Source of the DNA: a virus
Direction: 5' to 3' (one strand)
DNA: 27,434 bases
IMG/VR virus record: IMGVR_UViG_3300035698_024015
Span: 1 to 27,434 of that record
Below, one piece after another: positions 1,707 to 19,170 of the stretch. Below the pieces are notes generated by a model, which did not search any database, had not been told where the DNA came from, and saw nothing but the letters and a program-made list of their open reading frames with translations. The number at the start of each line of letters is the position of its first letter. The stretch's first letter is position 1. Position numbers and translations under genes: made by a program.

Positions 1707-1719
1707 AAAAATTAAAATT

Positions 1720-3048: not shown

Positions 3049-3082
3049 AAATAAAATAAATAATAAATAAAAATTACATATT

Positions 3083-3424: not shown

Positions 3425-3479
3425 TAATTTTCTTATGTTATTTGTGTATTTTATTGTTTATTTTGTTTTTTTTTAATGA

Positions 3480-3490
3480 TATATTTATAA
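3480..3490 (+). promoter_or_regulatory. TATATTTATAA promoter-like element before the terminase
   Basis: Exact copy of an element found in front of seven genes in this window. It resembles the Bacteroidota -7 box TAnnTTTG. Here the start codon is 57 bases beyond the element, so the leader is longer than at most other copies. A TTG at 3454-3456 is a weak -33 candidate. Confidence 0.4.
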
Positions 3491-3547
3491 TAGAAGCGGT
3501 TAATTTTTTAATTTAGAGAAAATTAGATATCGTTATAAAAATTATTT

Positions 3548-5683
3548 ATGGAATTAGATCAATATCAAAAAGAATATTTAAGGTGTTCAGCAGATCCAAA
3601 ATATTATTTAAATAATTATGGATATGTTTTTGATGTAGATAAAAACAAGATTGGAAAAATGACTTGTTACGAGTATCAAAACAATTGTCTTGATGATTTT
3701 CATAAGCATACAAATAATATAATTTTAAAAAGCCGACAGTGTTTACCAAAAAACACTTTGATTGATACCCCAAAAGGAAGAAAAGTTATACAAAATTTAA
3801 AAAAGGGCGATAAAGTTTATTCATTTAATAGAGATACAAGAACAAAAGAATGTGATTTTATTGAACAATCTTGGGAAAGTGGTGAAATGCAATGTGTAAG
3901 GTTTTATTTAAAAAATGGAAAAAGTTTTGAAGTTGGTGAAAATCATCCATTTTTAGTAAATGGAAAAGGGTGGGTTAAATCAAAAGAATTGCAAGATGGC
4001 GATGAAATTGTTAATGCAGATTCACAAAGAAAATCTATTATAGATAGGGTTATTGATACAATTAAGAAAAAAACATATGACATTTCTGTTATTAAAAATG
4101 AAAATTTTTTAATAGATGGTATGGTGACTCATAATACAGGTCTTTCTGTTGTCACTGCTGGATATGTTGCTTGGAGGTTGATTTTTAGAAAAGATGAAAA
4201 AATATTAATTATTGCCAATGATGGAGATGGTGCAGTTAGGTTTTTAACCACAGTAAAGCAGTTTGTGGACTATACGCCAAAATGGTTATTGCCAGGAGAT
4301 GGAGATCCTTTATTAAGAAATCAAAAATTTATACAATTAAAAAATGGTTCATATGCACAAGCTAAAGCAAGTAGTTCACAAGCTGGCCGTGGAGATTCTT
4401 TAACTTTATTGGTTTTAGATGAAACTGCTTTTATTGAGCATGCTGATAGTATATGGATGGGAGCTGGTATGGCTTTATCAAGAACTAATGGAAAATGTAT
4501 TATGATTTCAACTCCAAATGGAACTCAAAATCTTTATCATAATACATGGGAAGGTGCAGAAGAGCGTATAAATGATTTTAATTTTAAAAGAGTTCATTGG
4601 ACTGAAAATACTTTTTGTGCTAAAGGGTTAGAAAAAAGAACTGGTGCAGATGGTGAAACTGTATGGTGGAGTCCTTGGTATGAAAAAGAATGTATAAGAT
4701 TAAAACGTGATAGGGTTAAAATAGCTCAGGAGTTAGATTTGTCTTTTGAGGGTTCTAAAAGATTGGCAATAGAGAATGATTTAGTTTCAAAATATGAAAA
4801 AAGGTTTTTATTGCAAGAATATAAAGACATAGAAAATAATAAAACTTATTATGATTATAAAAATAAATTTGGAGAGCGATTTGTTGATTATGAAACAGAG
4901 TTTTGGGTTTTTAAAAAATATGAAAAAGGACATAAATATTTAATTGGATGTGATGTTGCCAGAGGAGACGGAAAAGACTTTTCAACAATACAAGTTGTTG
5001 ACATAGACACATTGGAAGTTGTTGCAGAATTTAGGGGACTTATTTCTCCTGATTTATTTGCTGTTTTAATTTATAATGTTGGAATGGATTATGGAGAGGC
5101 ATATGTTGTTGTGGAGTGTAATAGTTTTGGTTTAGCAACAGCGTTTGATTTGAATAGAAAAATGAATTATTCAAGGATGTTCTTTTCTAAGAATATTCAA
5201 GAGATTTATGTTAGACCACATGATTATAAAGTTGATACTGATGAAAGCATACCAGGGTTTCAAACAACTAAAAAAACAAGGCCATTGGTTGTTAATAATT
5301 TACGTTCACATTTGAGAAGTGGTGAGCTTAGAATTTATTCTAAAAGAGTATTAGGTGAATTAAAATCATTTATACAAAATGGAGATAGAGCAGAAGCAGA
5401 AAGGGGAAAAAATGATGATTTAATTTTTGCACTTGCCATTGCTTTGTTTATTAGAGATACAGATTATAAAAATGCTTCTGCAAGTAGCGAAATGTATAAA
5501 GGAATGTTAGATGCCATAGGATATAGTAGCAATTCTATTTCTGGGGAAAGAAGTAATACAATAAAACAAAATATGGAAAATGTTTCAGATATCCCACCAG
5601 ATGCTGGAGGTATTTTTTTTAGTGAAAATAAGTCAGATTTTAATGATGAAGAGGAAGATGATATTGCTTGGCTTTTAAAATAA
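3548..5683 (+). CDS. terL: Large terminase subunit (T4 gp17-like) with intein
   Basis: This is the ATPase/nuclease that pumps DNA into the prohead through the portal and cuts the concatemer. The 711-residue precursor contains an intein at residues 65-196; without it the enzyme is 579 residues, close to T4 gp17 (610). The intein splits the Walker A loop: N-terminal KSRQ joins C-terminal TGLSVVTAG to give SRQTGLS, matching the SRQLGKT of gp17. Walker B is LLVLDE at 287-292 with E292 as catalytic base; STPNG at 321-325 fits motif III. The RNase H-fold nuclease follows, with D469 (GCDVARGDG), E523 (VVVECN) and D623/D624 (KNDDLIFA). The portal gene lies next, as in many phages. The start follows an A-rich leader and is preceded by a promoter-like element. 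Confidence 0.93.
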   Translation: MELDQYQKEYLRCSADPKYYLNNYGYVFDVDKNKIGKMTCYEYQNNCLDDFHKHTNNIILKSRQCLPKNTLIDTPKGRKVIQNLKKGDKVYSFNRDTRTKECDFIEQSWESGEMQCVRFYLKNGKSFEVGENHPFLVNGKGWVKSKELQDGDEIVNADSQRKSIIDRVIDTIKKKTYDISVIKNENFLIDGMVTHNTGLSVVTAGYVAWRLIFRKDEKILIIANDGDGAVRFLTTVKQFVDYTPKWLLPGDGDPLLRNQKFIQLKNGSYAQAKASSSQAGRGDSLTLLVLDETAFIEHADSIWMGAGMALSRTNGKCIMISTPNGTQNLYHNTWEGAEERINDFNFKRVHWTENTFCAKGLEKRTGADGETVWWSPWYEKECIRLKRDRVKIAQELDLSFEGSKRLAIENDLVSKYEKRFLLQEYKDIENNKTYYDYKNKFGERFVDYETEFWVFKKYEKGHKYLIGCDVARGDGKDFSTIQVVDIDTLEVVAEFRGLISPDLFAVLIYNVGMDYGEAYVVVECNSFGLATAFDLNRKMNYSRMFFSKNIQEIYVRPHDYKVDTDESIPGFQTTKKTRPLVVNNLRSHLRSGELRIYSKRVLGELKSFIQNGDRAEAERGKNDDLIFALAIALFIRDTDYKNASASSEMYKGMLDAIGYSSNSISGERSNTIKQNMENVSDIPPDAGGIFFSENKSDFNDEEEDDIAWLLK
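3740..4135 (+). other. Mini-intein in the terminase Walker A loop (132 residues)
   Basis: Starts at Cys1 (CLPKNTLIDTPKG, block A) and ends in VTHN before Thr+1. Block B is GENHPFLV, with the conserved His but Gly in place of the usual Thr three residues earlier. Block F is YDISVIKNENFLIDG. Penultimate His and terminal Asn are present, so class 1 splicing looks possible. There is no room for a homing endonuclease. Until it is removed the terminase has no intact P-loop. Confidence 0.92.
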
Positions 5684-5730
5684 ATATTTAAATATTTAAA
5701 GAAATTTTTGATTTTATTAAAAAATTTTGC

Positions 5731-5741
5731 TATATTTATAA
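5731..5741 (+). promoter_or_regulatory. TATATTTATAA promoter-like element before the portal gene
   Basis: Exact copy of the shared element, ending 12 bases before the portal ATG. TTTG at 5707-5710 lies 20 bases upstream, the spacing expected for a Bacteroidota -33/-7 promoter. This is the best-formed copy. It implies a very short leader. Confidence 0.5.
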
Positions 5742-5753
5742 AAAAATAAATTA

Positions 5754-7775
5754 ATGGATAATCAAAAAAGTATATTTAGTGGTGTTTTAGATGCCCTTAA
5801 TGGAAATAGAAGAAAAAAGACTACTATTGATATTAATGATCCAAATTATAGACCAACACAAACAGCTCCAAAGGTAGATACATCTGGAGGAGTAGAAAAT
5901 GCACAACAACAATTTTTAGATTGGCAAGTAACAAAAATTGCACATGATTTATATACAAGGACTGTATATTATGATACAGACAGAATTTCGGCATATCAAG
6001 ATTTTAGAGCAATGGATGGTACGCCTGAAATAGCAGCAGCTTTAAATATAATAAGAGATGAGTGTCTTACGCGCTCTGAGCGGGGAAATATATTAGAGGT
6101 TTATTCAGAAAATCAAAGAGTAAAAGAAGTTTTAAATGATTTATTTAAAAATATTTTAAATGTAGATTTTAATTTAAGATTATGGATTAGAGATTTAGTA
6201 AAATATGGAGATTATTTTGTAATGTTACAAGTTGACAAAGAACTTGGTATTTATGACTTTTTAACATTACCAATGGAAGAAGTTCACAGAGAAGAAGGTT
6301 ATGATGGACGAGTAGATTCTGTTAGGTTTAGATGGGAAACAACTGGTGATTATTTTGAAGAATGGCAAGTAGCACATTTTAGATTATTAGAAGATTCAAG
6401 AAAGCTTCCATATGGAAGGTCTTTGTTAGATTCATCAAGAAAACTTTGGAAACAACTTCAGTTAGCTGAGGATGCAATGTTAGTTTATAGAATTACAAGA
6501 GCACCAGAGAGAAGAGTTTTTTATGTTGAAGTTGGTAATTTACCAGACCCTGATGTAAAAACATATATGGGAAAAGTACAAAATCAAATTAGAAAACAAT
6601 CAATGGTTGATCAGAGAACTGGAAATGTTGCTCAAAAGTATAATCCACAAAACGTAACAGAAGATTATTGGATTCCAATTAGAGGTGATAAATCTTCAAG
6701 AATAGATACTTTACCAGGAGCTTCAAATTTAGATCAAATCCAAGATATTGAATATCTTCAAGGTAAATTATTCGCAGCATTACAGGTACCAAAGACATAT
6801 TTAAACTTTTCAGAAGGTATGCAGGGTGGTAGTACTTTGTCTCAGGCTGATTTAAGGTTTGCACGTACAATTAATTCTATTCAAGAGGCAATTTTATTAG
6901 AATTAAGAAGAGTTGCAAATGTTCATTTGTATTTTTTAGGTTTAAATGATGATATTGATAATTTTTCTTTGTCATTAACAAATCCTTCAACACAACAGGA
7001 ATTGTTAAAACTAGAAACAATGAAATCTAGATTAGAGGTATTTAAAGATTTCTTTTCACATGAAGCTACATCTCCAGCTTCTTATACTTGGGCAATGGAA
7101 AATATATTAGATTTTTCAAAATCTGAAATTAAATTAATATTAAAACAGAAAAAGGTTGAGAAAAAAGTATTTGCTGAAATTGAAAGTGCCGTTGAAACAT
7201 ATAAGAAAATTGGATTATTCGATGAATTAGATAATAGATATGAAGATGCAAATGCACAAGTTGAACCTGGCTCTGGTGAAGAGTTTGATGATGGAGAAGG
7301 TGATGAACTTGGTGGAGGTGGTGGTGGAAGCTTTGGTGGTGGTGGAAGTTTTGGTGGTGGTGACTTAGGTGGGGAAGATTTAGGTGGAGGCGAAACAAAG
7401 GAAGATGAAATAGAACCAGAAGAAGAAGAAGAAGAAAAAGAAGAAGAACCTTTATCAGAAAATATAAAGCGTAATATTATTCTTGAGAGAAATATTAATG
7501 AATTATTAGAATTAAAAGAAGAAAAAAGAACAAAACAAATAAAAGAACAAAATAAAAATGTTTTGTTTGATAAAAATAAACAACTAACAAATGCTTCGAA
7601 AAAACTAATAGAATCTATTGAAAAGCGTGGAGATAGTTTTAGTAATTTTGAAATAATAGATAATGAGTTAGAATTAACTGGTAGCAAAAAAACTTTACTA
7701 GAAAGAAATGATGAGCATAATGAAAAAACTTTAGAGATTTTTGAATCTTTAGATAAATTATCAGAAAATGACTGA
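5754..7775 (+). CDS. Portal protein (T4 gp20-like)
   Basis: The portal forms the dodecameric ring at the head vertex, through which DNA enters and to which the terminase and neck dock. The family signature is clear: YQDFRAMDGTPEIAAALNI near the N-terminus, LVKYGDYFVML, the RLLEDSRKLPYGRSLLDSSR stretch, YRITRAPERRVFYV, and LPGASNLDQIQDIEYLQGKL with VPKTYLNF. The core (about residues 40-450) is gp20-sized. After residue 515 comes an unusual tail: a Gly-rich run (about 520-547), a Glu-rich run (about 550-575) and a charged helical end, making the protein 673 residues against 524 in T4. It follows the terminase by 70 bases with its own promoter-like element and overlaps the next gene by 8 bases. 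The function of the tail is unknown. Confidence 0.92.
   Translation: MDNQKSIFSGVLDALNGNRRKKTTIDINDPNYRPTQTAPKVDTSGGVENAQQQFLDWQVTKIAHDLYTRTVYYDTDRISAYQDFRAMDGTPEIAAALNIIRDECLTRSERGNILEVYSENQRVKEVLNDLFKNILNVDFNLRLWIRDLVKYGDYFVMLQVDKELGIYDFLTLPMEEVHREEGYDGRVDSVRFRWETTGDYFEEWQVAHFRLLEDSRKLPYGRSLLDSSRKLWKQLQLAEDAMLVYRITRAPERRVFYVEVGNLPDPDVKTYMGKVQNQIRKQSMVDQRTGNVAQKYNPQNVTEDYWIPIRGDKSSRIDTLPGASNLDQIQDIEYLQGKLFAALQVPKTYLNFSEGMQGGSTLSQADLRFARTINSIQEAILLELRRVANVHLYFLGLNDDIDNFSLSLTNPSTQQELLKLETMKSRLEVFKDFFSHEATSPASYTWAMENILDFSKSEIKLILKQKKVEKKVFAEIESAVETYKKIGLFDELDNRYEDANAQVEPGSGEEFDDGEGDELGGGGGGSFGGGGSFGGGDLGGEDLGGGETKEDEIEPEEEEEEKEEEPLSENIKRNIILERNINELLELKEEKRTKQIKEQNKNVLFDKNKQLTNASKKLIESIEKRGDSFSNFEIIDNELELTGSKKTLLERNDEHNEKTLEIFESLDKLSEND
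7311..7450 (+). repeat. Low-complexity Gly/Glu-coding tract in the portal gene
   Basis: Runs of GGT/GGA triplets (7311-7390) are followed by GAA triplets (about 7420-7448). Both are simple-sequence tracts prone to in-frame length change. They encode the flexible Gly-rich linker and acidic run of the portal tail. Confidence 0.8.
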
Positions 7776-7986
7776 GGATTATCATAATATTAAAGAGAAC
7801 TATTCTCTTTTGAAAAAAACAAAAGAGGAATTAAAAGATAATATGGATGCTTTTTTAATTAATCCAACGCCAAGAGGCAATAGTGCAAAGGTTCAACATA
7901 AAATAACTGCTATTAGAACTATTTCTAAATCATTAAGAGAGAGCATAAAAAAGCAAGCACAAGATTATAAAAGTGATTATAGTTAA
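7768..7986 (+). CDS. Small helical protein overlapping the portal gene
   Basis: This 72-residue, charged, probably all-helical protein is not one I recognise. Its ATG lies inside the portal gene's last codons (8-base overlap), which suggests translational coupling and a role tied to the portal or head. The central NPTPRGNSAKVQHKITAIRT looks like a loop followed by a helix. By position it could be a small head-assembly or scaffold-type factor, but nothing in the sequence proves this. Confidence 0.6.
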   Translation: MTEDYHNIKENYSLLKKTKEELKDNMDAFLINPTPRGNSAKVQHKITAIRTISKSLRESIKKQAQDYKSDYS

Positions 7987-8028
7987 AAAATAATTTAAGT
8001 TTTTCTAAAATTTTTAATAAATTTTTTA

Positions 8029-8039
8029 TATATTTGTAA
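8029..8039 (+). promoter_or_regulatory. TATATTTGTAA promoter-like element before dnaE
   Basis: One-base variant of the shared element. It matches the Bacteroidota -7 box TAnnTTTG exactly. The dnaE ATG lies 27 bases beyond it. No clear -33 TTTG is seen. Confidence 0.45.
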
Positions 8040-8066
8040 AAAATTAATTTTCTTTAAAGATTTTAA

Positions 8067-11000
8067 ATGAAAGATTTAAATTTAGATAATTTAGGTTTTG
8101 GCGAAACAAAAAATCAAGCCAACAATCCAAACAATATAAACCAAACAAATAGTTATACTCCATTTGTACATACTCATTTGCATACATTTCATAGTATTTT
8201 AGATGGATGTGGGAGTATTGATGATTATATTAAGCTTGCAAAAAAGTTTAATCATCCAGCCATAGCAATAACAGATCATGGAACATTAAGTGGTACATTT
8301 GAATTTTTCACAAAATGTAAAAAAGCAGGGATTAAGCCAATATTAGGAATGGAAGCTTATGTAAATGATAATATGGGTGAGTTTGAGGAGAAAAAATACG
8401 AGGGAGGAAACGCACATCAAATTATTTTAATAAAAAATAAAGCAGGTTTTATTAATGCAAATAAATTAGCATATAAGTCTTTTAAAGAAGGATTTTATAG
8501 AAGAGGAAGAATAAAAACAGAATGGCTACTTGAACATAAAGATGGTTTAATTATAACAACATCTTGTGTTGCTGGAAAAGTTGCAAAATTATTATTTGAT
8601 AATAAGGAAATTGAAGCAGAAGAATATTTTATAAAATTAAAAAGTGAATTTGGTGGTGATTTTTATGCAGAACTCCAACTTAATGAATTAGCTATTCAGA
8701 AGCGATATAACAGCTTTTTGATTAAAATGGCAGATAAGCATAAGGTTAAGTTGATAATAGCATCAGATGTACACTATGCATATCCAGAGGACGTAGATCT
8801 ACAAGACACATTGATAGCTATCAACCAAAAGAAACAACTTGATAGTTCATTTAAATTAAGTACTAGAAGTTTATATTACGCATCTTCTAAGGATATAATG
8901 GACTTTAATTATAATTATGGTTATAATTATTCAGAAAATTTTATAAATTATTGTTTAAGTAATACGTTAGAAATTGCTGATAAATGTAATTTTGAGTTTG
9001 AAGTTGGTGTAGAAAAATATCCAAAATATGAACCAACTCAGGATGTTATAGATTACTTTAAAACAGAAAATTCAACAGAAATAATTCAAAAACTTGCATT
9101 TGCTAAATTAAAGCAAAAAATTAGAGAGTATCAAAAAAACGGTATTGTAAAAATTGATAATAATGTTATTAAGGAATATGTTGATAGATTAAACTATGAA
9201 ATGCAAATTATTTCTGATAAAAAAATGCTAGACTATTTTCTTGTTAATTGGGAAATAATTAGAGATTATAGAGCAAATGGATTAGATGTTGGTGCTGGTA
9301 GGGGAAGTGCGGCTGGTTGTTTATTAACATGGTGTTTAGATATAACAAAAATTGATCCATTACGATTTAATCTTTATTTTGAACGTTTTTTAAATCCAAC
9401 AAGAAATTCTCCTCCTGATTTAGATATAGATTTTAATAAAGATACCGATGATGTTATAGATAAGTTTTTAATTGAAAAATATGGAGAAGATAGAATTTTA
9501 TCTGTTTCTACTTTTTCTACATTTAGTGAAAAAGGTTGTTTGAAAGATGTTGTTAGAGCACATCATGGTCCAGATGCAACAGGATATGATTCAGTAGCAT
9601 TTCAAATAACAAAAGAAATGCCAAACTGGTTAAAAGCAGATTATTCTTTGCGTGATTGGTTTGAGTTTTGGCCAAAAGAAAAAGAGTGTAGCTCAGAAGT
9701 GAGAAATTGGTTAACAGATGGCAATAATCAAACAATTTTAAATCAAACATTAAGGTTGCAAGGGCAAGTTAGAGGAATTAGTCAACATGCAGCAGGTGTT
9801 GTCATAACACCAACAGAATGTTGGAATGATGTTCCAACTAATATAATAGCATCTAATAAAAGTATTGTTACTGCATACCAAGAGTCTGATGGAAGTGGCA
9901 AAGACTTGTCTGCTTTAGGTATATTAAAGCTTGATATGTTAAAATTAGAAACATTAAATGTTATTCGAGAATCAGTTGGTTTGGTGAAAAAACATAAAAA
10001 CATTGATATTGCTAATAAGGTTGATAATGTTGATTTAAATGATAAAAGTTTATATGCAGAATTAAGGCTTGGTTTAAACCATGGTATTTTTCAGTTTGAA
10101 AGCCATGGAATGAATGCTCTAATTAAAGGAATATCTGTGGAGAATTTTGATGAATTAGTTGCTGCAAATGCTTTATATAGACCAGGCCCAATGGGTATTG
10201 GCGCACATGAAGATTATGTGAAAAACAAATTTAACCCAAAAAACATTAGATATATACATCCAATTTTTGAAAACATATTGGGAGAATCAAATGGGGTTTT
10301 GATTTTTCAAGAGCAAGTAATGTTTATAGCTAATCAGATTGGTGGAATGAGTTTAGGTGAAGGAGATATGTTAAGAAGAGGTATGGATAAAGCATCAAAA
10401 ATGATTGATAAAGAGTCTAAGGGAGAAAAATTAACAGCACAAGAAGTAAATAGCACAAAGTATCAAAATTTTTTAAAGTATTGGAATATGTTTTTAGATG
10501 GTGCTATAAAAAACGGATATCAACAACAAACAACAGAGTTAATTAAATCTTGGATGATTAAGTATTTAGGTTATTCATTTAATAAATGTTTGACAAAAAA
10601 CCATGTGGTTTGTGTAAAAAACAAAGGTGAAACACTAATAAGTAATGTTAGTGTTGGAGATTTTGTGTTGGGATACAATACAAAAATAAAAACAGATGAA
10701 TATAATAAAATAAAAGAAATACATCATAATGGAACAAAGACTGTTTATAGGATAAAAACAAAAAAAGGAAATGTTTTAGAGTGTACATTAGATCATAAAA
10801 TAATGACTGATTTTGGAATGGTTACTTTGGGTGATATTTTAAATAATGGGTTTAAAGTAAAAATTAACACAAAAAAGCTAGATGAAATTATTGAATATAA
10901 TGAAATAGGAGAAATGGAAACGTTGGATTTGGAAATTGATAGTGAATTTCATAATTTTTATGCCAACAACATATGCGTTTCAAATAGTCATTGTGTTTCT

Positions 11001-11942
11001 TATAGTTATATTGGAATGCAAACTTTATTTTTGAAACATTATTATCCAACAGAATTTTATACATCACTTCTAAATCATCCAAAATCTTTTAATAAAAAAG
11101 AAGAAGGGCATAAATGGTTATCCAATGTTCTTATTTCAGCAATGTCAAAAGGAATAAGAATAAAAAAACCATCAAGAAAATCTGGTTGGAGATGGACAAT
11201 GACTGGAGAAAAAGAAATTTCAATGGGATTTCAAGGTGTTAATGGTCTTGGGAAAAAAGCATATGATGAACTAATGAGATTTTTGCAATTAGAACAAATA
11301 ACATTTGAAAATATTACATTAACAACATTTTTTAATTTCCCATTTTCTGTTTTTAATAAAACTGCTTTTGGTGTTTGTTTAAAAGCAGGCGTATTTGATG
11401 ATTGGTCTAATTCTAGAGAAGAGTTAATGAAGTTAAAACAAAAAAAGAAAAAAAAGAAAGACCCAAACCAAATGGCGTTATTTGATTTGTCATCTGATGA
11501 GTTTGAAATATCTTTAAAAAACACACAGGGAAAAATAACTTCAGATGAACAAAAGAAAGTTGATTTTATAGAAGTTTGTAATTTTGATTTAGACAGAATA
11601 GAAGAACTATTATCTATAAAAAAATATTTAAGTGAAAAAGCAAAAAGAACAATTGAAAGTATATTAAATTTTACTAAAAATGATTATTACTTTTTCTCTA
11701 TTGATGAAATAAGAGAAGATTATTCAAAGAATGGAAAAGTTTATTTGACAATTAAAGTTGGAGATGGAATTAGTTATACAACACTAAGAGTTTTCCCCCC
11801 TAGAAAAGAAACCAAAGGAAGTTTATTTGAAACTGTAAAAAATACAGCAGAAATTGGTGGGATATATGTTTCGCAGTTTGAAAAAAACAAAAAAGGTTTT
11901 ATTAATTTTAAAAGAGATGCTCAATTTAAAAAAATAAAATAA
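8067..11942 (+). CDS. dnaE: DNA polymerase III alpha subunit, family C, with intein
   Basis: This is a phage-encoded replicative polymerase of bacterial type. The 1291-residue precursor has an intein at 841-973; the spliced product is 1158 residues, the size of E. coli DnaE. Order of parts: N-terminal PHP domain (H35-T-H37, ITDHG at 68-72, GMEAYV, ASDVHYA); palm with GAGRGSAAG, PPDLDIDF giving D451 and D453, and D623 in LKLDMLKLETL; fingers with RPGPMGIGAH and FQEQVM; the YSFNK/SHCVSYSYIGMQ element split by the intein; a helix-hairpin-helix region; the clamp-binding motif QMALF at 1135-1139; and an OB-like end (KVYLTIKVGD). I see no exonuclease insertion in the PHP domain, so this is the DnaE, not the PolC, type. 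Proofreading would have to come from the PHP domain or another protein. rnhA follows one base after the stop. Confidence 0.95.
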   Translation: MKDLNLDNLGFGETKNQANNPNNINQTNSYTPFVHTHLHTFHSILDGCGSIDDYIKLAKKFNHPAIAITDHGTLSGTFEFFTKCKKAGIKPILGMEAYVNDNMGEFEEKKYEGGNAHQIILIKNKAGFINANKLAYKSFKEGFYRRGRIKTEWLLEHKDGLIITTSCVAGKVAKLLFDNKEIEAEEYFIKLKSEFGGDFYAELQLNELAIQKRYNSFLIKMADKHKVKLIIASDVHYAYPEDVDLQDTLIAINQKKQLDSSFKLSTRSLYYASSKDIMDFNYNYGYNYSENFINYCLSNTLEIADKCNFEFEVGVEKYPKYEPTQDVIDYFKTENSTEIIQKLAFAKLKQKIREYQKNGIVKIDNNVIKEYVDRLNYEMQIISDKKMLDYFLVNWEIIRDYRANGLDVGAGRGSAAGCLLTWCLDITKIDPLRFNLYFERFLNPTRNSPPDLDIDFNKDTDDVIDKFLIEKYGEDRILSVSTFSTFSEKGCLKDVVRAHHGPDATGYDSVAFQITKEMPNWLKADYSLRDWFEFWPKEKECSSEVRNWLTDGNNQTILNQTLRLQGQVRGISQHAAGVVITPTECWNDVPTNIIASNKSIVTAYQESDGSGKDLSALGILKLDMLKLETLNVIRESVGLVKKHKNIDIANKVDNVDLNDKSLYAELRLGLNHGIFQFESHGMNALIKGISVENFDELVAANALYRPGPMGIGAHEDYVKNKFNPKNIRYIHPIFENILGESNGVLIFQEQVMFIANQIGGMSLGEGDMLRRGMDKASKMIDKESKGEKLTAQEVNSTKYQNFLKYWNMFLDGAIKNGYQQQTTELIKSWMIKYLGYSFNKCLTKNHVVCVKNKGETLISNVSVGDFVLGYNTKIKTDEYNKIKEIHHNGTKTVYRIKTKKGNVLECTLDHKIMTDFGMVTLGDILNNGFKVKINTKKLDEIIEYNEIGEMETLDLEIDSEFHNFYANNICVSNSHCVSYSYIGMQTLFLKHYYPTEFYTSLLNHPKSFNKKEEGHKWLSNVLISAMSKGIRIKKPSRKSGWRWTMTGEKEISMGFQGVNGLGKKAYDELMRFLQLEQITFENITLTTFFNFPFSVFNKTAFGVCLKAGVFDDWSNSREELMKLKQKKKKKKDPNQMALFDLSSDEFEISLKNTQGKITSDEQKKVDFIEVCNFDLDRIEELLSIKKYLSEKAKRTIESILNFTKNDYYFFSIDEIREDYSKNGKVYLTIKVGDGISYTTLRVFPPRKETKGSLFETVKNTAEIGGIYVSQFEKNKKGFINFKRDAQFKKIK
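10587..10985 (+). other. Mini-intein in DnaE (133 residues)
   Basis: Begins at Cys1 (CLTKNHVVCVKNKG), carries block B as CTLDHKIMT with Thr and His in place, block F as LDLEIDSEFHNFYAN, and ends in CVSN before Ser+1. The penultimate residue is Ser, not His; other DnaE inteins also lack that His. There is no endonuclease domain. The insertion point FNK/SH is three residues after the AEY/CFNK point of the cyanobacterial split DnaE intein, so it is the same conserved element but a different site. Confidence 0.92.
11469..11483 (+). other. Sliding-clamp-binding motif QMALF in DnaE
   Basis: Encodes residues 1135-1139, followed by DL. It fits the QxxLF consensus by which bacterial polymerase III alpha binds the beta clamp, and it lies in a Lys-rich flexible segment after the fingers, where such motifs occur. 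It suggests the enzyme uses a beta-type clamp from the host or from elsewhere in the phage genome. Confidence 0.75.
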
Positions 11943-11943
11943 A

Positions 11944-12393
11944 ATGAAACAAGATTTTTTAATATATACAGATGGTGCTTGTAAAGGAAACCCTGGCGTT
12001 GGGGGTTATGCTTATGTGGTTTATGATTTAAATGGTGTTGAATGGCATAAAGGTTCTGGAAAACAAAAACTAACAACAAATAACCAGATGGAATTGACAG
12101 CTGTTATTGAGGCTTTGAAAAAACTTAAAGAAACATATAAAAGTTTTAATGCTAATGTTTTTTCTGATAGTTCTTATGTTGTAAATTGTTTTATTGATGG
12201 GTGGTTTGAAAAATGGGAAGAAAATGGTTGGAAAACATCAAAAAATAAAAAAGTTTTTAATAAAGAATATTGGATTGTGTTAAAAAAATTAACCAATGAG
12301 TTTGGCGTTTCTTTTAATAAAGTTCCAAGAAATGATAAGAATATTCAAAAAGTAGACAGAATAGCAAAACAACAAACAGTGAACCATAGCTAA
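11944..12393 (+). CDS. rnhA: Ribonuclease HI
   Basis: The enzyme cuts the RNA strand of RNA-DNA hybrids and here probably removes lagging-strand primers. At 149 residues it is close to E. coli RNase HI (155). The four acidic catalytic residues are visible: D10 in YTDGACKGNPG, E50 in NNQMEL, D75 in FSDSSYV and D138 in KVDRIAKQ. The conserved His of the flexible loop is absent: that position reads KVPRNDKN instead of a VKGH-type motif, so turnover may be slower. The tryptophan-rich substrate handle is present (GWFEKWEENGWKT). The gene follows dnaE after one base, indicating co-translation of two replication proteins. It ends about 170 bases before the end of a convergent gene; in that gap I see no gene and no convincing terminator. 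Confidence 0.93.
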   Translation: MKQDFLIYTDGACKGNPGVGGYAYVVYDLNGVEWHKGSGKQKLTTNNQMELTAVIEALKKLKETYKSFNANVFSDSSYVVNCFIDGWFEKWEENGWKTSKNKKVFNKEYWIVLKKLTNEFGVSFNKVPRNDKNIQKVDRIAKQQTVNHS

Positions 12394-13245: not shown

Positions 13246-13695
13246 ATGGCAATAAAAGGAAAGGGAATGAAGAAATTATATCGCATAGCAAAAAAACAAA
13301 CTAAACAGCCATTAAATGTCGGTAAAAAAAATGAATATATTAAAAAACAATCTAAAAAAATGTCAAAAAAACTTACTTGGCCAGAAAGAGAGTTTTTAAA
13401 ATTAATGAAAGAGTTAACAATTAAAGTAGAATCGCAAAAAATAGTTGGTGGGAAAATATATGACTTTTATATTCCAGAAAAAAATATTTTAATTGAAGTT
13501 GATGGAGATTATTGGCATGGAAATCCAGATGTTTATGAAGAAAAAAATAAAATGCAAAAAAGAAATGTAAAAAATGACCAATTTAAAAATGTGATTGCCA
13601 AAGCATATGGATATGAAATAGAACGAGTTTGGGAGAAAAATTTAAAAGAAGACTATTTACAAACAAAAAAAAGATTTCTAAATTTGTTAAAATGA
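13246..13695 (+). CDS. Vsr/DUF559-like PD-(D/E)XK endonuclease, candidate free-standing homing enzyme
   Basis: The 149-residue protein has a very basic N-terminal tail (about 1-42), which may bind DNA, followed by a compact nuclease domain. Likely active-site elements are E47/E49 in WPEREF, D73 in IYDFYIP, E84 and D86 in LIEVDGDYWH, and H91. This is the layout of Vsr-like and DUF559-like nucleases, a group that includes free-standing phage homing endonucleases. The end (YGYEIERVWEKNL) is also typical. The family does mismatch nicking, homing or restriction-like cutting; which applies here cannot be told. It starts the gene chain that holds the repeat paralogues, sharing an ATGA overlap with the first. 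Two endonuclease-free inteins lie upstream, so action in trans on intein-free alleles is conceivable. Confidence 0.75.
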   Translation: MAIKGKGMKKLYRIAKKQTKQPLNVGKKNEYIKKQSKKMSKKLTWPEREFLKLMKELTIKVESQKIVGGKIYDFYIPEKNILIEVDGDYWHGNPDVYEEKNKMQKRNVKNDQFKNVIAKAYGYEIERVWEKNLKEDYLQTKKRFLNLLK

Positions 13696-14111
13696 GAAAT
13701 AATCTAAAAAATATAATAAAAAAAGAAGTAAAAAACATTTTGTTAGAAAATGAAGAAATCTTTGTTCCACATAATTTAAAAGGAAGAAAAGAGAAACGTT
13801 TACAACAAATATATAAAATGTTGCAACAAAAACATATTGAAGGAGATTTAGATTTAAGTGATACAGATATAATACACATTGGAAAATTGGAGACTATTAG
13901 TGGTAGTTTATGGTTAAGAGATACAAAAATAACATCATTTGGAAATCTTAAATATATTGGACAGAGTTTACAGATAGAGAATACGCCAATAACATCATTT
14001 GGAAACCTTGAAGATGTTGGATGGGAGATATATTCAGAAAACACACCAAATTTATCATGGGATGATATACCAAAACACTTACATTACAAAGTACTAGGAA
14101 AAAATAAATGA
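13692..14111 (+). CDS. Leucine-rich-repeat-like paralogue 1 (3 units)
   Basis: First of five related proteins. I place the start at 13692, not at the ATG at 13629, because it overlaps the nuclease stop as ATGA and gives the same N-terminus as paralogues 2 and 3. The 139-residue protein has an amphipathic leader (MRNNLKNIIKKEVKNILLE), a conserved head (EEIFVPHNLKGRKEKRLQQI ... QQKHIEGDLDL), three 20-residue units of the ITSFGNLKYIGQ type, and a C-terminal cap (ENTPNLSWDDIPKHL). The units put Leu/Ile at regular places, which suggests a small right-handed or LRR-like solenoid. The stop overlaps the next start (ATGA). Function is unknown; similar repeat proteins occur in phages, but I know of no assigned role. 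Confidence 0.75.
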   Translation: MRNNLKNIIKKEVKNILLENEEIFVPHNLKGRKEKRLQQIYKMLQQKHIEGDLDLSDTDIIHIGKLETISGSLWLRDTKITSFGNLKYIGQSLQIENTPITSFGNLEDVGWEIYSENTPNLSWDDIPKHLHYKVLGKNK

Positions 14112-14761
14112 AAAATAAATTACGACATATAATAAGAAAAGAGGTGAATAATTTTTTATCAGAGGGAGAAGAAATCTTTGTTCCGCATAACTTAGAAGGA
14201 AGAAAGGAAAAACACTTACAACAAATACGTAAAACATTACAACAGAAACACATTGAGGGTGATTTAGATTTAAGCGATATGGATATAACTCATCTTGGTA
14301 AAATGGAAACTATTAATGGAAAATTAATATTAGATAACACACCAATAACATCACTTGGAAATTTAAAAGGAGTTGGGGGGTATTTATTGATAAAAAATAT
14401 ACAAATAACATCACTTGGAAATTTGAAATATGTTGGAGGGTTACGGATATACAATACTTCAATAACATCACTTGGAAATTTAAAAGGAGTTGGGGGGAGT
14501 TTAAATTTAAAAGACACAAAAATAACATCACTTGGAAGTTTAAAAGAAGTAGGTAATTGGCTATGTTTAAGAAACACACCAATAATATCTCTTGGAAATT
14601 TGGAATATGTTGGTATGGATTTAGATTTAACAAACACGCCAATAGCATCACTTGGGAATACACTCAAGGTTGATGAGTGGATAGATTTAGAGAATACGCC
14701 AAATTTATCTTGGAATGACATACCAGAACATTTATATGATAAAGTGCAAGGAAAAAAATAA
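14108..14761 (+). CDS. Leucine-rich-repeat-like paralogue 2 (7 units)
   Basis: The 217-residue protein has the same plan as its neighbour: leader MKNKLRHIIRKEVNNFLSE, head EEIFVPHNLEGRKEKHLQQI, then seven units (HLGKMETING, SLGNLKGVGG, SLGNLKYVGG, SLGNLKGVGG, SLGSLKEVGN, SLGNLEYVGM, SLGNTLKVDE) and the cap ENTPNLSWNDIPEHL. The third spacing is one residue short (57 instead of 60 bases). Start and stop are fixed by overlaps on both sides (ATGA, then TAATG). The last two units and cap closely match those of paralogue 3, while middle units differ, which points to internal gain or loss of units by recombination. Function unknown. Confidence 0.78.
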   Translation: MKNKLRHIIRKEVNNFLSEGEEIFVPHNLEGRKEKHLQQIRKTLQQKHIEGDLDLSDMDITHLGKMETINGKLILDNTPITSLGNLKGVGGYLLIKNIQITSLGNLKYVGGLRIYNTSITSLGNLKGVGGSLNLKDTKITSLGSLKEVGNWLCLRNTPIISLGNLEYVGMDLDLTNTPIASLGNTLKVDEWIDLENTPNLSWNDIPEHLYDKVQGKK

Positions 14762-15660
14762 TGAAGAATAAGTTGAGATATATAATAAAAAAAGAAGTAA
14801 AAAACATTTTGTTAGAAAATGAAGAAATCTTTGTTCCATATAACTTAGAAGGAAGAAAAGAGAAGCGTTTGCAACAAATATATAAAATATTGCAACAGAA
14901 GCATATTGAAGGTGATTTGGATTTAAGTGGTATAGATATAACTCATCTTGGGAAACTAGAATCTGTTAGCGGGAACTTAAATTTAAGCGAAACAAAAATA
15001 ACATCACTTGGAAATTTAAAAGAAGTTGGGGGGTATTTATGGCTAAAGAGAGTATCAATAATATCACTTGGAAATTTGTTTAGGGTTGGAAGTACTTTAA
15101 GTTTATTTGACACAAAAATAACTTCACTTGGAAATTTAAAAGAAGTTGGTGGAAATTTAAATTTAGAAAGAACATTAATAACCTCGCTTGGATACATAGA
15201 AGAAGTTAATGGGAGTTTGTTTTTAGAAAACACACCAATAGTTTCTCTTGGAAACTTAAAAGAAGTTAGGGGAAATTTAAATTTAATCAATACAAAAATA
15301 ACTTCACTTGGAAATCTGAAAAAAGTTGGTGGAGATTTAGATTTAAGAAATACACAAATAATATCACTTGGAAAACTAACCGAAGTTATAGGAAATTTAG
15401 ATTTAAGAGGCTCGGAAATATCATCACTTGGAAACCTAAAAAAAGTTGTGGGATACTTATGGTTAGAAAACACACAAATAACATCTCTTGGAAATTTGGA
15501 ACATGTTGGTATGGATTTAGATTTAACAAACACACCAATAGCATCACTTGAAAACAAGCTCGAAGTTGATGAATGGTTAGATTTAGAAAATACACCAAAT
15601 TTATCTTGGGATGATATACCAAAACATTTATATGATAAAGTAATAAGAAAAAAGAAATAA
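14761..15660 (+). CDS. Leucine-rich-repeat-like paralogue 3 (11 units)
   Basis: Longest member, 299 residues. Leader MKNKLRYIIKKEVKNILLE, head EEIFVPYNLEGRKEKRLQQI, then eleven units of exactly 20 residues with the core ITSLGNLKEVGG, then the cap ENTPNLSWDDIPKHL. Each unit alternates a strand such as GDLDLRNTQ or GYLWLENTQ with the ITSLGNL turn, as expected of a solenoid with a Leu/Ile core. The start overlaps the previous stop by one base (TAATG). Leader and head are almost the same as in paralogue 1, so duplication is recent. The next gene, 20 bases on, has a similar leader but no repeats. Confidence 0.8.
   Translation: MKNKLRYIIKKEVKNILLENEEIFVPYNLEGRKEKRLQQIYKILQQKHIEGDLDLSGIDITHLGKLESVSGNLNLSETKITSLGNLKEVGGYLWLKRVSIISLGNLFRVGSTLSLFDTKITSLGNLKEVGGNLNLERTLITSLGYIEEVNGSLFLENTPIVSLGNLKEVRGNLNLINTKITSLGNLKKVGGDLDLRNTQIISLGKLTEVIGNLDLRGSEISSLGNLKKVVGYLWLENTQITSLGNLEHVGMDLDLTNTPIASLENKLEVDEWLDLENTPNLSWDDIPKHLYDKVIRKKK
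14941..15600 (+). repeat. Eleven 60-base repeats in paralogue 3
   Basis: The motif wcwTCwCTTGGAAA recurs at a strict 60-base period (near 14943, 15003, 15063 and so on to 15543). Related copies occur in the other four paralogues. The long DNA-level similarity offers many sites for in-frame recombination within and between the genes. Confidence 0.88.
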
Positions 15661-15680
15661 AAATTTTAAAATTAAATTAT

Positions 15681-16115
15681 ATGAAAAAAATAATACGAAA
15701 AATAATAAAAGAAGAAATTGATAAAATATTTGAATTTACTACGGCAGAAATAAAAGAAAAAAGAGAAGATGTCAGCGGGGATATAGAACGAATGGATAAA
15801 AACATTAATCGCATTAAAGGTGAAATTGAAGTTGTTAAATCAAATAAACAAAATATCCAGAAAACAAGAGGAAACATAAAAGATGTTAATCCAGAAGTTG
15901 AAAAATTAAAAAAACAATTATCAGGAAAAGAGTTTGAAAAATATAAAGATATTGAAAAAGAGAAAACAGATTTATTAAAAGATTTTGAACAGGAAAAAGC
16001 AGAAGATTTAAAAAATAAATCTCAAGTAGATATGTTACAACCATCTGAAACAAACATGGAAACTAGTACAGAAGCAGGACAGCCTTCAACGCCAGATGCA
16101 CCAAGCATTCCATAA
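15681..16115 (+). CDS. Coiled-coil protein with leader like that of the repeat paralogues
   Basis: The 144-residue protein begins MKKIIRKIIKEEIDKIFE, closely resembling the leaders of the three repeat proteins before it. A long charged helical region follows (about 20-115, probably coiled coil, with RMDKNINRIKGEIEVVKSN), then a Pro/Ser/Thr-rich disordered end (TSTEAGQPSTPDAPSIP). No other domain is seen. It starts 20 bases after paralogue 3 and ends about 80 bases before the first baseplate-type gene. The shared leader on an otherwise unrelated protein suggests a sorting or assembly tag, for instance for packaging into the prohead. I do not recognise the family; scaffold-like or internal head protein is a guess. 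Confidence 0.65.
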   Translation: MKKIIRKIIKEEIDKIFEFTTAEIKEKREDVSGDIERMDKNINRIKGEIEVVKSNKQNIQKTRGNIKDVNPEVEKLKKQLSGKEFEKYKDIEKEKTDLLKDFEQEKAEDLKNKSQVDMLQPSETNMETSTEAGQPSTPDAPSIP

Positions 16116-16163
16116 TAATTGAAAAAATATTGATTTTTTGTTGATTTTATTTTTTTTTCATTA

Positions 16164-16174
16164 TATATTTATAA
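16164..16174 (+). promoter_or_regulatory. TATATTTATAA promoter-like element before the first baseplate-type gene
   Basis: Exact copy of the shared element, 20 bases before the ATG at 16195. A TTG at 16141-16143 lies 20 bases upstream and could serve as -33 box. This placement also argues against a start at 16138, which would lie upstream of the element. Confidence 0.45.
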
Positions 16175-16194
16175 TAAAATTAAAAAAAAATATT

Positions 16195-17037
16195 ATGGAA
16201 GAAGAAAAAAAAGAAATTATCTTAGGCAATAATAAGACAACACAAGAAATGAGTAAAGATATTCCAAACGAATTCATAGATACAGAATTTAAAGTTCCTA
16301 CTGAAATGGTAAAGTTACCATCAAAAGGTGTTTTTTATAAAGATAATATAAAAGAAGTTGAGGTAAAATATTTGACTGCTGAGGAAGATGATGTTTTATT
16401 TTCTCCAGAATTAATAAAAAGCGGAAAAGTATTAGATGCACTTTTGCAAATTGCAGTTGTAGATAATAAAATTGATCCTTCAGATATGCTTATTGGGGAT
16501 AGAAATGCAATTCTTATTTATTTAAGAAAAACAGGTATAGGAAATATTTATCAGCCAGGCAAAATGACTTGTCCATCTTGTGGTGAAAAATATTTACCAG
16601 ATGTAGATTTGGATAAATTAAAAGAAAAATGGTTAGAAGATATGCCAGACGAAAATGGTTGGTATAGTTTTTTATTACCAAAAATGGAAAAAAACATTAA
16701 ATTTAGAATGTTAACAGGTAGAGATGAAAACAAAATTTCTAAAGCATCTGAGAGTGGAAAAAAAGCACGTAGAGGAAAATATAAAGTTTCTAAAGGAATA
16801 ACAGAAAGATACAAACTTCAAATTATGGAAGTTGAAGGGAATAAAGATAAATTATATATTTCTAGATTGATTTCTGCAATGCCAATGAAAGATTCTGCTG
16901 TGTTTAGAGAATATGTAAAAATAATATCACCAGGTGTTGATTTTGATTATATATTTGAATGTAAAAAATGTGGTCATTCATATGAAGACAGTGTTCCGAT
17001 GACATATAAACTTTTTTATCCAGATGCAGATTTGTAA
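16195..17037 (+). CDS. Baseplate hub-type protein with zinc site, copy A (T4 gp26-like family)
   Basis: I start the protein at 16195 (MEEEKKEI), giving 280 residues. An earlier in-frame ATG at 16138 would add a Phe/Ile-rich stretch translated from a promoter-like region. The family signature is VKLPSKGVFYKDNIKEVEVKYLTAEEDDVLFSPEL (shown by its ends, LPSKGVFY and LTAEEDDVL), then LLIGD-like MLIGDRNAILIYLRKTGIG. Two CxxC pairs, C126/C129 (CPSC) and C256/C259 (CKKC), probably bind one zinc ion. This pattern is common in T4-type baseplate hub proteins annotated as gp26-like, which help build the central hub before tail assembly. It is paralogous to the following gene. Family assignment is from memory of the motif pattern and is moderately sure. 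Confidence 0.65.
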   Translation: MEEEKKEIILGNNKTTQEMSKDIPNEFIDTEFKVPTEMVKLPSKGVFYKDNIKEVEVKYLTAEEDDVLFSPELIKSGKVLDALLQIAVVDNKIDPSDMLIGDRNAILIYLRKTGIGNIYQPGKMTCPSCGEKYLPDVDLDKLKEKWLEDMPDENGWYSFLLPKMEKNIKFRMLTGRDENKISKASESGKKARRGKYKVSKGITERYKLQIMEVEGNKDKLYISRLISAMPMKDSAVFREYVKIISPGVDFDYIFECKKCGHSYEDSVPMTYKLFYPDADL

Positions 17038-17112
17038 AAAATATTTGTGGTGAAAATTTTGTATATCTTTTGAGTTTTTAAAAACTAATAAAATAGATGG
17101 ATTTGACATTGA

Positions 17113-18168
17113 ATGAATAATAAAAAAACATATAAAGAGATATTGATTGAATTACAAGAATCTGTTAACGATGTTAATAAAAGTTTTTATGATATTAAAA
17201 AAGAACAACAAAAGCTAAAAAATAAAGAGCATGTTTCACAACTTTTTAGTGTTGTTAATCTCCCATCAGAAGGAAAGTTTTATGAAGATAAAAGAAAATC
17301 AGTTTTAATAAGATATTTAACATCAATTGAAGAAAACATATTAACAGATGAAATGTTAATGGAGTCTGGAAGGGGTTTGAAGATGGTTTTGCAAAATCTT
17401 ATTGTGGATGATGTTGATGTAGATGATTTAATATCAGGGGATTTCCAATCTCTTTTAATATTTTTACGTTCTACTGCATATGGAGATGTAATAAAATTTG
17501 AACCAACTTGTCCATTTTGTAATAAAGAATCAGAAAATCAATTTGAATTATCTTCACTTGAGTTTAAAAAACAAAAAAACACACCAAATTCAAATGGTAA
17601 ATATCATGTTGCTTTCCCAGAAATTAATATGAAAATAACAACATTGCCAATGACTTTTGGTAGTGAATTAGAAAAAGAAAACGAAGAAGATGAACATTAT
17701 GTTTATAATGATGAGAATGGTAAAGTTAAAATAAAACGAGAAAGAACAACATCATTAGCTTATTGCATAGATGATATAAATGGAGAAAAGAATAGGTCTA
17801 ATATAAAAAAAATAATAAGAAGCCTTCCAAAAAAATATACAGATGAATTAAATAAATTTATTAAAAATAATGAAATAGGAGTTCAAGAATATATTAATTT
17901 AAATTGTGAGTTTTGTGGAAAAGAATTTAAACAAGAAATGAAAGTTGGGTTTAATTTTTTATCATTACCATATTCATATAGACAATCTATGTTAGAAGAA
18001 CTATTTATATTAACTTACTATGGAAGGGGTTTTACATATAAAGATGCAGCTCAAATGCCAGTTTATGAAAGAAAATGGTTTATTAAAAAAATAAACGAAA
18101 CATTACAAAAAAAATCAGAGGCAGAAAAACAAGCATATAGTAAAGCAAAAAAGAAATCGAAAAAATAA
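17113..18168 (+). CDS. Baseplate hub-type protein with zinc site, copy B
   Basis: The 351-residue paralogue of the preceding gene has the same opening (VNLPSEGKFYEDKRKSVLIR, LTSIEENILTDEML), the same SGDFQSLLIFLRSTAYG motif, and two CxxC pairs, C133/C136 (CPFC) and C265/C268 (CEFC). It adds an N-terminal helix (about 40 residues) and a C-terminal region (RQSMLEELFILTYYGRGFTY ... YERKWFIKKINE) with a Lys-rich end. That tail is frequent in T4-type baseplate proteins. Two adjacent diverged copies suggest two non-equivalent subunits in the hub. No shared promoter element precedes it, so it is probably read from the upstream gene across 75 bases. The 140 bases after it hold no intact gene. Confidence 0.65.
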   Translation: MNNKKTYKEILIELQESVNDVNKSFYDIKKEQQKLKNKEHVSQLFSVVNLPSEGKFYEDKRKSVLIRYLTSIEENILTDEMLMESGRGLKMVLQNLIVDDVDVDDLISGDFQSLLIFLRSTAYGDVIKFEPTCPFCNKESENQFELSSLEFKKQKNTPNSNGKYHVAFPEINMKITTLPMTFGSELEKENEEDEHYVYNDENGKVKIKRERTTSLAYCIDDINGEKNRSNIKKIIRSLPKKYTDELNKFIKNNEIGVQEYINLNCEFCGKEFKQEMKVGFNFLSLPYSYRQSMLEELFILTYYGRGFTYKDAAQMPVYERKWFIKKINETLQKKSEAEKQAYSKAKKKSKK

Positions 18169-18180
18169 TTTTCCATAAAA

Positions 18181-18303
18181 TCAATGCAACCTTTTGATAT
18201 TTTTTACGTATAGTTTAATGAATTTATCAATATTTTGACAATTCATCCAACGACTAAAGTGTGTTGGCTTTTTTATTGAATTGATCGTAAAAAGCGAATA
18301 AAA
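18181..18303 (-). pseudogene. Possible remnant of a minus-strand gene
   Basis: In the gap after the second baseplate-type gene, the minus strand reads a stretch of about 40 codons ending at a TGA (complement of 18181-18183). It includes KKPTHFSRWMNCQNIDKFIK. The HFSRWM...I.KFI spacing faintly recalls the KilA-N/MSV199 domain (for example KxFSxW...TxELI). There is no start codon of its own in the gap. It could equally be chance in noncoding DNA. Confidence 0.2.
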
Positions 18304-18310
18304 AAACAAA

Positions 18311-18856
18311 ATGATTAAAGAAGAAATATTTGTTCCACATAATTTAGAAGGAAGAAAAGAACAACGTTTGCAACAAATATATAAGATGTTGCAACAAAAA
18401 CATATTGAAGGAGATTTAAATTTAGATAATATGGATATAACTAATCTTGGTAAATTGGAATCCATTAGCGGTTGGTTAAGTTTAAACAATACAAAAATAA
18501 CATCTCTTGGAAATTTAAAGGAAGTTGGTAGTTATTTATATTTAGAAAACACACCAATAACATCTCTTGGAAATCTTAAAGAAGTTGGGGGATACTTATG
18601 GTTAGAAAACACACCAATAACATCTCTTGGAAACCTAACCAAAGTTGGGGATTTATATTTAAGAAATATACCAATAACTTCTTTTAGAAACCTAACCAAA
18701 GTTGGGGGATATTTAGATTTACAAAACACGCCAATAAAATCTCTTGAGAATTTACAAGAAGTTGGGTATAATTTGTATTTAAAAGACACACCAAATTTAT
18801 CCTGGGAAGATATTCCAAAACATTTACATTCTAAAGTAAAAGGAAAAAAGAAATGA
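18311..18856 (+). CDS. Leucine-rich-repeat-like paralogue 4 (6 units)
   Basis: The 181-residue protein begins directly at the conserved head (MIKEEIFVPHNLEGRKEQRL) and lacks the amphipathic leader of paralogues 1-3. Six units follow (NLGKLESISG, SLGNLKEVGS, SLGNLKEVGG, SLGNLTKVG, SFRNLTKVGG, SLENLQEVGY), one of them short, then the cap KDTPNLSWEDIPKHL. Its stop overlaps the next start as ATGA. It sits on the other side of the two baseplate-type genes from paralogues 1-3. Missing the leader means that, if the leader is a sorting tag, this copy stays elsewhere or is degenerate. Function unknown. Confidence 0.75.
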   Translation: MIKEEIFVPHNLEGRKEQRLQQIYKMLQQKHIEGDLNLDNMDITNLGKLESISGWLSLNNTKITSLGNLKEVGSYLYLENTPITSLGNLKEVGGYLWLENTPITSLGNLTKVGDLYLRNIPITSFRNLTKVGGYLDLQNTPIKSLENLQEVGYNLYLKDTPNLSWEDIPKHLHSKVKGKKK

Positions 18857-19170
18857 AAAACACAACAGAAGAAGAAATCTTTGTTCCATATAATATAGAA
18901 GAAAGAAAAGGGAAGCGTTTGCAACAAATATATAAGATGTTACAACAAAAACACATTGAGGGGGATTTGGATTTAAGAGATATGGATATAACGCACCTTT
19001 GGAAACTGGAATCTATTAGTGGTTTTTTAGATTTAGAAAGAACAAAAATAACATCTCTTAGAAATCTAAAGGAAGTTGGGGAGTATTTAGATTTAGAAAA
19101 CACATTAAGTTTATTCTGGGATGATATACCAGAATATTTACATTCTAAAATAGTAGGAAAAACAAAATAG
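18853..19170 (+). CDS. Leucine-rich-repeat-like paralogue 5 (2 units, shortened)
   Basis: This is the shortest member at 105 residues: MKNTTE, then the head EEIFVPYNIEERKGKRLQQI, two units (HLWKLESISG, SLRNLKEVGE), and a diverged cap (ENTLSLFWDDIPEYL). The Gly of the SLGNL turn is replaced by Trp or Arg in both units, so the solenoid may be degenerate. It lacks the amphipathic leader. The ATGA overlap with paralogue 4 shows the pair is translated together. It may be a decaying copy or a minimal capped version. Confidence 0.7.
   Translation: MKNTTEEEIFVPYNIEERKGKRLQQIYKMLQQKHIEGDLDLRDMDITHLWKLESISGFLDLERTKITSLRNLKEVGEYLDLENTLSLFWDDIPEYLHSKIVGKTK

Follow-up and report, generated by a model that had tools for sequence, protein, structure and literature searches.

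The window, by which the whole stretch of DNA under analysis is meant (27,434 bases of a viral genome from IMG/VR), carries five paralogous genes, A to E, whose products are built of leucine-rich repeats (LRRs; Table 1). The original prediction had described paralogues with 3, 7, 11, 6 and 2 units, three standing before and two after a pair of T4-type baseplate genes, with overlaps of 1 or 4 bases. This is borne out by the translations of the open reading frames and by the coordinates, the overlaps being 4 bases for A/B, 1 base for B/C and 4 bases for D/E. Directly 5' of the block lies a homing-endonuclease-like ORF, which overlaps gene A by 4 bases. Between gene C and the baseplate pair, there is an ORF for a coiled-coil protein that was absent from the earlier description; Pfam and PHROG profile searches with its product gave coiled-coil matches only, and no LRR. 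A T4-type portal is also encoded. Neither a prohead protease nor a capsid gene was found in the 27,434 bases, which are a fragment of a genome. A pair of insertions was also noticed in the window (3548-5683 / 8067-11942): a terminase-like ORF holds an intein (Hint/intein domain), and the DNA polymerase III alpha ORF has an intein-style insertion, as judged by eye.

Table 1. Features of the window, with positions counted from its first base; the leader is the N-terminal segment described in the text, and an arrow marks a predicted cut.
Feature	Position	Strand	Details
Sequence examined			IMG/VR fragment, 27,434 bases; G+C 28%
T4-type portal			PF07230, E 2.5e-72
Homing-endonuclease-like ORF (DUF559/Vsr fold)	13246..13695	+	PF04480, E 1e-6; phrog_559, E 1.6e-12; phrog_9084
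LRR gene A	13692..14111	+	139 aa; 3 units; with leader
Leader of A	13692..13748	+	residues 1-19, MRNNLKNIIKKEVKNILLE; predicted cut LLE↓N; PSSM 14.7 bits
LRR gene B	14108..14761	+	217 aa; 7 units; with leader
Leader of B	14108..14164	+	MKNKLRHIIRKEVNNFLSE; predicted cut LSE↓G; PSSM 18.1 bits
LRR gene C	14761..15660	+	299 aa; 11 units; with leader
Leader of C	14761..14817	+	MKNKLRYIIKKEVKNILLE; predicted cut LLE↓N; PSSM 18.9 bits
Coiled-coil ORF	15681..16115	+	144 aa; between C and the baseplate pair
Leader of coiled-coil ORF	15681-15734	+	residues 1-18, MKKIIRKIIKEEIDKIFE; predicted cut IFE↓F; PSSM 24.5 bits
T4-type baseplate protein 1	16195..17037	+	PF12322, E 3.6e-9; phrog_150, E 1.6e-12
T4-type baseplate protein 2	17113..18168	+	PF12322, E 9e-12; phrog_150, E 1.9e-12
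LRR gene D	18311..18856	+	181 aa; 6 units; without leader; start MIKEEIFVP
LRR gene E	18853..19170	+	105 aa; 2 units; without leader; start MKNTTEEEIFVP

The repeat unit is 20 residues long, except in units B3 and D4, which have 19. In the alignment of the paralogues, columns 21-60 are mostly invariant. The head and cap said to be common to all five are indeed present, the head being nearly invariant and the cap a feature of every C-terminus; the exact versions given for them do not extend to gene E, the most diverged paralogue, which has the head EEIFVPYNIEERKGKRLQQI and the cap SLFWDDIPEYL. A profile of the family finds a relative on another contig with an E-value of 1e-80, and chance similarity is therefore excluded.

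The repeats form an LRR solenoid, a kind of structure that is already known. In Pfam, the products of B, C and D exceed the curated cut-off for the Receptor L domain (PF01030; E 1.9e-8 for C), while A matches it weakly and E gives no match, as both are short. An AlphaFold2 model of C, built with seven relatives, has a solenoid with a mean pLDDT of 87.4 and strands recurring every 20 residues, together with a helical cap at residues 29-44 and a C-terminal helix at 288-293. Its N-terminus is a separate helix (residues 2-19), and a low-confidence linker spans residues 14-28. The fold-based PDB matches are LRR proteins. By profile, the best PDB match is 8z5u, an LRR protein in the polar flagellar motor (E 1.9e-30), followed by SspH1 (1.5e-8), IpaH7.8 (6.5e-6) and, more weakly, YopM (3e-3). 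The solenoid of a binding-type fold that had been predicted is thus identified as LRR by Pfam, by AlphaFold2 and by PDB fold and profile matches. An enzyme fold was also considered and rejected: Pfam, PHROG, AlphaFold2 and the PDB fold search gave LRR matches only, with no enzyme family among them.

SspH1, IpaH7.8 and YopM are bacterial LRR proteins that are delivered. They resemble the proteins of the window in their 20-residue units, but the latter are products of phage genes, are devoid of a ligase domain and would have to follow another delivery route. Similarly, the flagellar motor protein 8z5u has the same unit type, although it is part of a bacterial machine and its matched part, unlike A-C, has no leader of the type described below. 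Two phage entries also match the LRR proteins of the window, namely A0A6J7X691, a 'Leucine-rich repeat' protein of an uncultured Caudovirales (36% identity by fold match), and the phage LRR family phrog_21719 (E 2.5e-8). A leader and chained paralogues are not part of the descriptions of either.

Within the units, variation peaks at positions 1, 10, 14, 16 and 18, and I2, L5, L8, V11, L15, L17 and T20 are conserved. A solenoid whose core is fixed and whose faces vary would be expected to show this; going by the LRR pattern, the variable faces would be oriented outward. The variable surfaces proposed earlier find their support in this concentration of the variation. The proposed ongoing diversification, in contrast, finds no support. 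Among the paralogues, purifying selection acts on the cap that they share (dN/dS 0.05-0.29), and adjacent units are 65.4% alike as against 64.7% for distant ones. The final two units in B and C are exceptional in this, being alike at 93% and 82%. Recent unit duplication was accordingly rejected, as neighbours are no closer than distant units, save for this shared end block.

Gain and loss of units and of whole genes, another part of the original prediction, stands insofar as the numbers differ in relatives. The IMG/VR contig 3300035698_021947 (G001) has a single LRR gene of 5 units, with 65% identity in the best segment; it stands behind a pair of large ORFs, in what looks like a structural block. 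An ORF at the end of this contig resembles the first ORF of the window (42% over 55 residues), and the two therefore probably have their gene neighbourhood in common. Two more distant LRR paralogues, with a different N-terminus, are present on contig 3300006128_000101 (L006). Judging from these contigs, copy and unit number vary among phages, slowly enough for the units to have diverged. A search of IMG/VR with the baseplate gene returned no sister phages. In the temperate phage Edno5, LRR proteins are encoded in the early region, adjoining recombination genes. A much larger array, in which about nine or more LRR ORFs follow one another, was seen in another setting, at 948-11389 of a contig (L008) whose bin is labelled as an uncultured Clostridia MAG. 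On L006, the two LRR paralogues and a NUDIX-like ORF (993-1940, 9983-10678 and 11424-12017) all start with MTLxEK and reach an L-x-E, which is possibly a second type of leader. The same contig has a portal-like ORF of 1372 aa (2904-7022), apparently with several intein-like insertions.

A leader of around 19 residues, MKxxLRxIIKxEIxxxLxE, is present on A, B and C as well as on the unrelated coiled-coil ORF; the starts of A-C are variants of MKNKLRxIIKKEVxNxLLE. It is absent from D and E, where there is no room for it, since the open frames begin just 3 (D) and 6 (E) codons upstream. On G001, it again occurs on the LRR gene and on one unrelated ORF, and the spacing is the same in all of these. 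In IMG/VR, the pattern containing the ATG was found at 13 places, mostly true N-termini of unrelated proteins. The core pattern without the ATG was found in at least 120 stretches, as against 10 for a reversed-codon control, and 82 of 95 core matches among those listed sit no more than 20 residues from the first ATG. This core scan yields at least 116 proteins with an N-terminal leader, at least 91 of them with non-redundant cargo. Some contigs have 3-5 neighbouring leader genes, and few known domains came up when 95 leader proteins were compared with Pfam (both among the matches listed). With a position-specific scoring matrix (PSSM) of the IMG/VR leaders, the four leaders of the window score 14.7-24.5 bits, whereas the best internal segment reaches 7.6. 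The possibility that the leader reflects chance or a general N-terminal composition is ruled out by the reversed-codon control and the N-terminal versus internal counts.

Cultured phages (GAP32, a cyanophage and Caulobacter phages) encode homologues of one cargo, that of protein L125. Several of these alignments begin at query residue 22, right after its LITE site, which gives the leader the look of a module joined on to the cargo. A cultured phage having both the leader and proteomics data did not turn up. Leaders were also seen on an ORF resembling, by eye, an ADP-ribosyltransferase (L052, 2265-2786) and on a DHH-family ORF (L061, 17691-18566; DHH E 6.5e-4), enzymes that may possibly be packaged cargo.

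The end of the leader calls to mind the internal proteins of phage T4. These bear capsid-targeting propeptides of 10-19 residues, and gp21 cleaves T4 substrates after L/I-X-E, while gp23 of T4 sheds a propeptide of 65 residues (PMC9026906). Among the matches listed, [LI]xE occurs within 9 residues past the core in 62 of 91 leader proteins (68%), with its E mostly at the fifth or sixth residue, whereas later windows of the same proteins have it in 2-8 of 81-91 each, i.e., about 2-9%. In the same set, A, G or S follows the E in 30 of the 62, as against 12.5 expected (p 6.5e-7). By sequence, the [LI]xE at the leader end matches the gp21 motif, and the leader length fits the T4 range. Some details count against a protease site. 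In A and C, the predicted cut is followed by N and not by one of A, G or S, and about a third of the leader proteins among the matches listed have no [LI]xE at the usual place. Further, L/I-x-E is short, and could belong to the helix for another reason.

A link to T4-type head genes was seen in the relatives. Among the leader contigs listed, the S77 prohead protease is present on 17 of the 37 longer than 20 kb and on 8 of the 10 longer than 100 kb, as against none of 9 control contigs, the controls being few and partly short. The T4 portal is likewise present on 17. That the protease is found in under half of these contigs, which are fragments, counts against the link; G001, likewise a fragment, has no S77 protease. 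Twelve of the protease-bearing contigs are 70 kb or longer, and on 8 of these the scanned leader gene lies within 20 kb of the protease, with 3.56 expected (p 0.007; among the matches listed). In addition, the major capsid proteins (PF07068) of 15 leader phages have a recurrent [LIV]xE in their N-terminal region, near residues 9, 35 and 60. These are putative cut sites, and the region matches that of the gp23 propeptide of T4.

As the IMG/VR leader contigs were picked by pattern, tests on sequences not so picked matter. A 484-kb phage, LR756508, which has the closest baseplate gene among annotated phage records, gave no match to this LRR family. By the PSSM, 27 of its 668 ORFs have the leader, with 1.5 expected from internal segments. 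Ten of the 44 ORFs within 20 kb of its protease are leader ORFs as against 17 of the 624 elsewhere (p 2e-6), an enrichment of around 10-fold. The majority of the remaining leader ORFs are found at 187-221 kb, not far from the baseplate gene (226.6 kb), and the fact that many leader genes adjoin tail genes, and not head genes alone, counts against a role in the head. In the dense runs of small leader ORFs of LR756508.1, at 140-162 kb (head genes) and 187-221 kb (before the baseplate gene), nearly all are without known function. Its S77 prohead protease gene (156480-158204; L193, 9480-11204) is split by a LAGLIDADG intein, an unusual place for one.

We propose, with a probability of about 0.5, that A-C are internal head proteins with a cleavable capsid-targeting leader; on infection they would be ejected into the host, and the LRR would there bind a target. 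This reading draws on the presence of the leader on unrelated cargo, the [LI]xE followed by a small residue, the clustering at the protease, the sites in the capsid proteins and the portal of the window. From the LRR fold, the leader common to unrelated proteins, the protease-like site and, in relatives, the association with head genes of the T4 type, all read from sequence, we infer docking, cleavage, packaging, ejection and target binding of A-C. The phage would be a T4-headed myovirus, probably a very large one. The leader, an amphipathic helix of around 19 residues, would dock A, B and C onto the prohead core, and a T4-type (S77) prohead protease would then cleave after L/I-x-E at its end. 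The mature proteins in the head would consist of a short helical cap and the LRR solenoid. They would leave the head with the DNA, and the solenoid would bind a host or defence target via its variable strand faces, with unit and gene number determining how large and how many the binding surfaces are. The leaderless D and E may act in the producing cell or enter the particle by another route; that they are as conserved in the cap as A-C, yet leaderless, counts against packaging. The original prediction had offered host-factor binders, decoys against defence proteins or exchangeable particle components as possible roles. For A-C, the leader points to head packaging and ejection, which gives the role of particle component or host-factor binder a concrete form, while D and E could take any of these roles.

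By these features, A-C probably belong with the capsid-targeted internal proteins of the T4 type. Like IPI, IPII, IPIII and Alt of T4, they carry a short N-terminal leader that is found on unrelated proteins and has L/I-X-E at its end, and the leader of around 19 residues compares with 10-19 in the T4 internal proteins (PMC9026906). A T4-type portal is present in the window, and a T4-type protease and capsid are present in relatives. The differences from the T4 internal proteins are the core LRxIIKEEI, the LRR cargo and the up to 27 leader genes in one genome, and the packaging of A-C is a predicted one. The head proteins of SPN3US and phiKZ also have N-terminal propeptides, cut by the prohead protease after x-x-E, and many of them are ejected (PMC10052503). 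Unlike the leader proteins, however, they have mostly long propeptides and belong to a different head lineage, and the motif in SPN3US is A-x-E (PMC10052503).

Other explanations of the locus have to be weighed against this one. All five LRR proteins may be intracellular binders or decoys acting against host or defence proteins, with the leader as an extra interaction helix. The LRR is a binding fold, D and E are leaderless, and the Edno5 LRR proteins lie in an early region beside recombination genes, all of which would suit such a role. Yet the leader is carried by unrelated proteins, a protease-like site and a link with head genes go with it, and A-C sit in a late structural block with the baseplate genes; we regard this account as rather unlikely. 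The position in that block could also mean that A-E are accessory proteins of the tail or baseplate, with the leader as a tail-docking helix. The paralogues flank both T4_baseplate genes, the second leader cluster of LR756508 (187-221 kb) adjoins a baseplate gene, two leader genes follow a tail-sheath-like ORF on contig G004, and the closest solved relative is the LRR protein of the polar flagellar motor. Against these stand the strongest leader enrichment in the vicinity of the prohead protease, the prohead-protease motif in which the leader ends and a cargo far too diverse for a single tail position, so that a tail role is considered improbable.

The diversity of the cargo, mostly without known function, would fit a helix for sorting or docking elsewhere (for example, at a replication compartment, the host membrane or RNA polymerase), in which L/I-x-E is just the end of the helix. 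Among the matches listed, the absence of [LI]xE from its usual place in about a third of the proteins, and the many leader contigs in which T4 head genes were not seen, agree with this. The small residues after the E, the similar sites in the N-terminal regions of capsid proteins and the clustering of leader genes at the protease do not, and such a destination appears quite improbable. There is, moreover, the nuclease-like ORF overlapping gene A by 4 bases, and copy number varies across relatives, as would be the case if the paralogues arose by selfish or neutral amplification through recombination near a homing-endonuclease-like gene, their number having no selected function. The purifying selection on the cap (dN/dS 0.05-0.29), the five intact frames and the divergence of the units make this highly improbable.

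The packaging of A-C and their ejection may be one instance of something broader. With chances that we take to be even, LRxIIKEEI...LxE is a widespread, undescribed code for capsid targeting in environmental T4-headed and huge phages, serving up to dozens of cargoes per phage (LRR binders, enzymes and proteins without known function) and delivering, at this locus, a set of LRR binders graded in length. In huge and environmental phages, the majority of genes have no assigned function. A readable address tag would flag, from sequence, the proteins that enter the host at the onset of infection, when defence is met. The question of which phage proteins are ejected would become computable and quickly testable, a packaging tag beyond T4 would be on offer, and the leader gives A, B and C a concrete proposed role. 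The core letters of the leader returned nothing from the open-access literature, and no description of phage LRR proteins or of capsid targeting in metagenomic phages was found in the open literature, outside which most subscription papers lie. The leader family, its consensus, its spread and its LRR cargo appear to be undescribed in the open literature. Among annotated phages, one full-length leader protein found no match, and a tblastn search with the short leader matched LR756508 alone.
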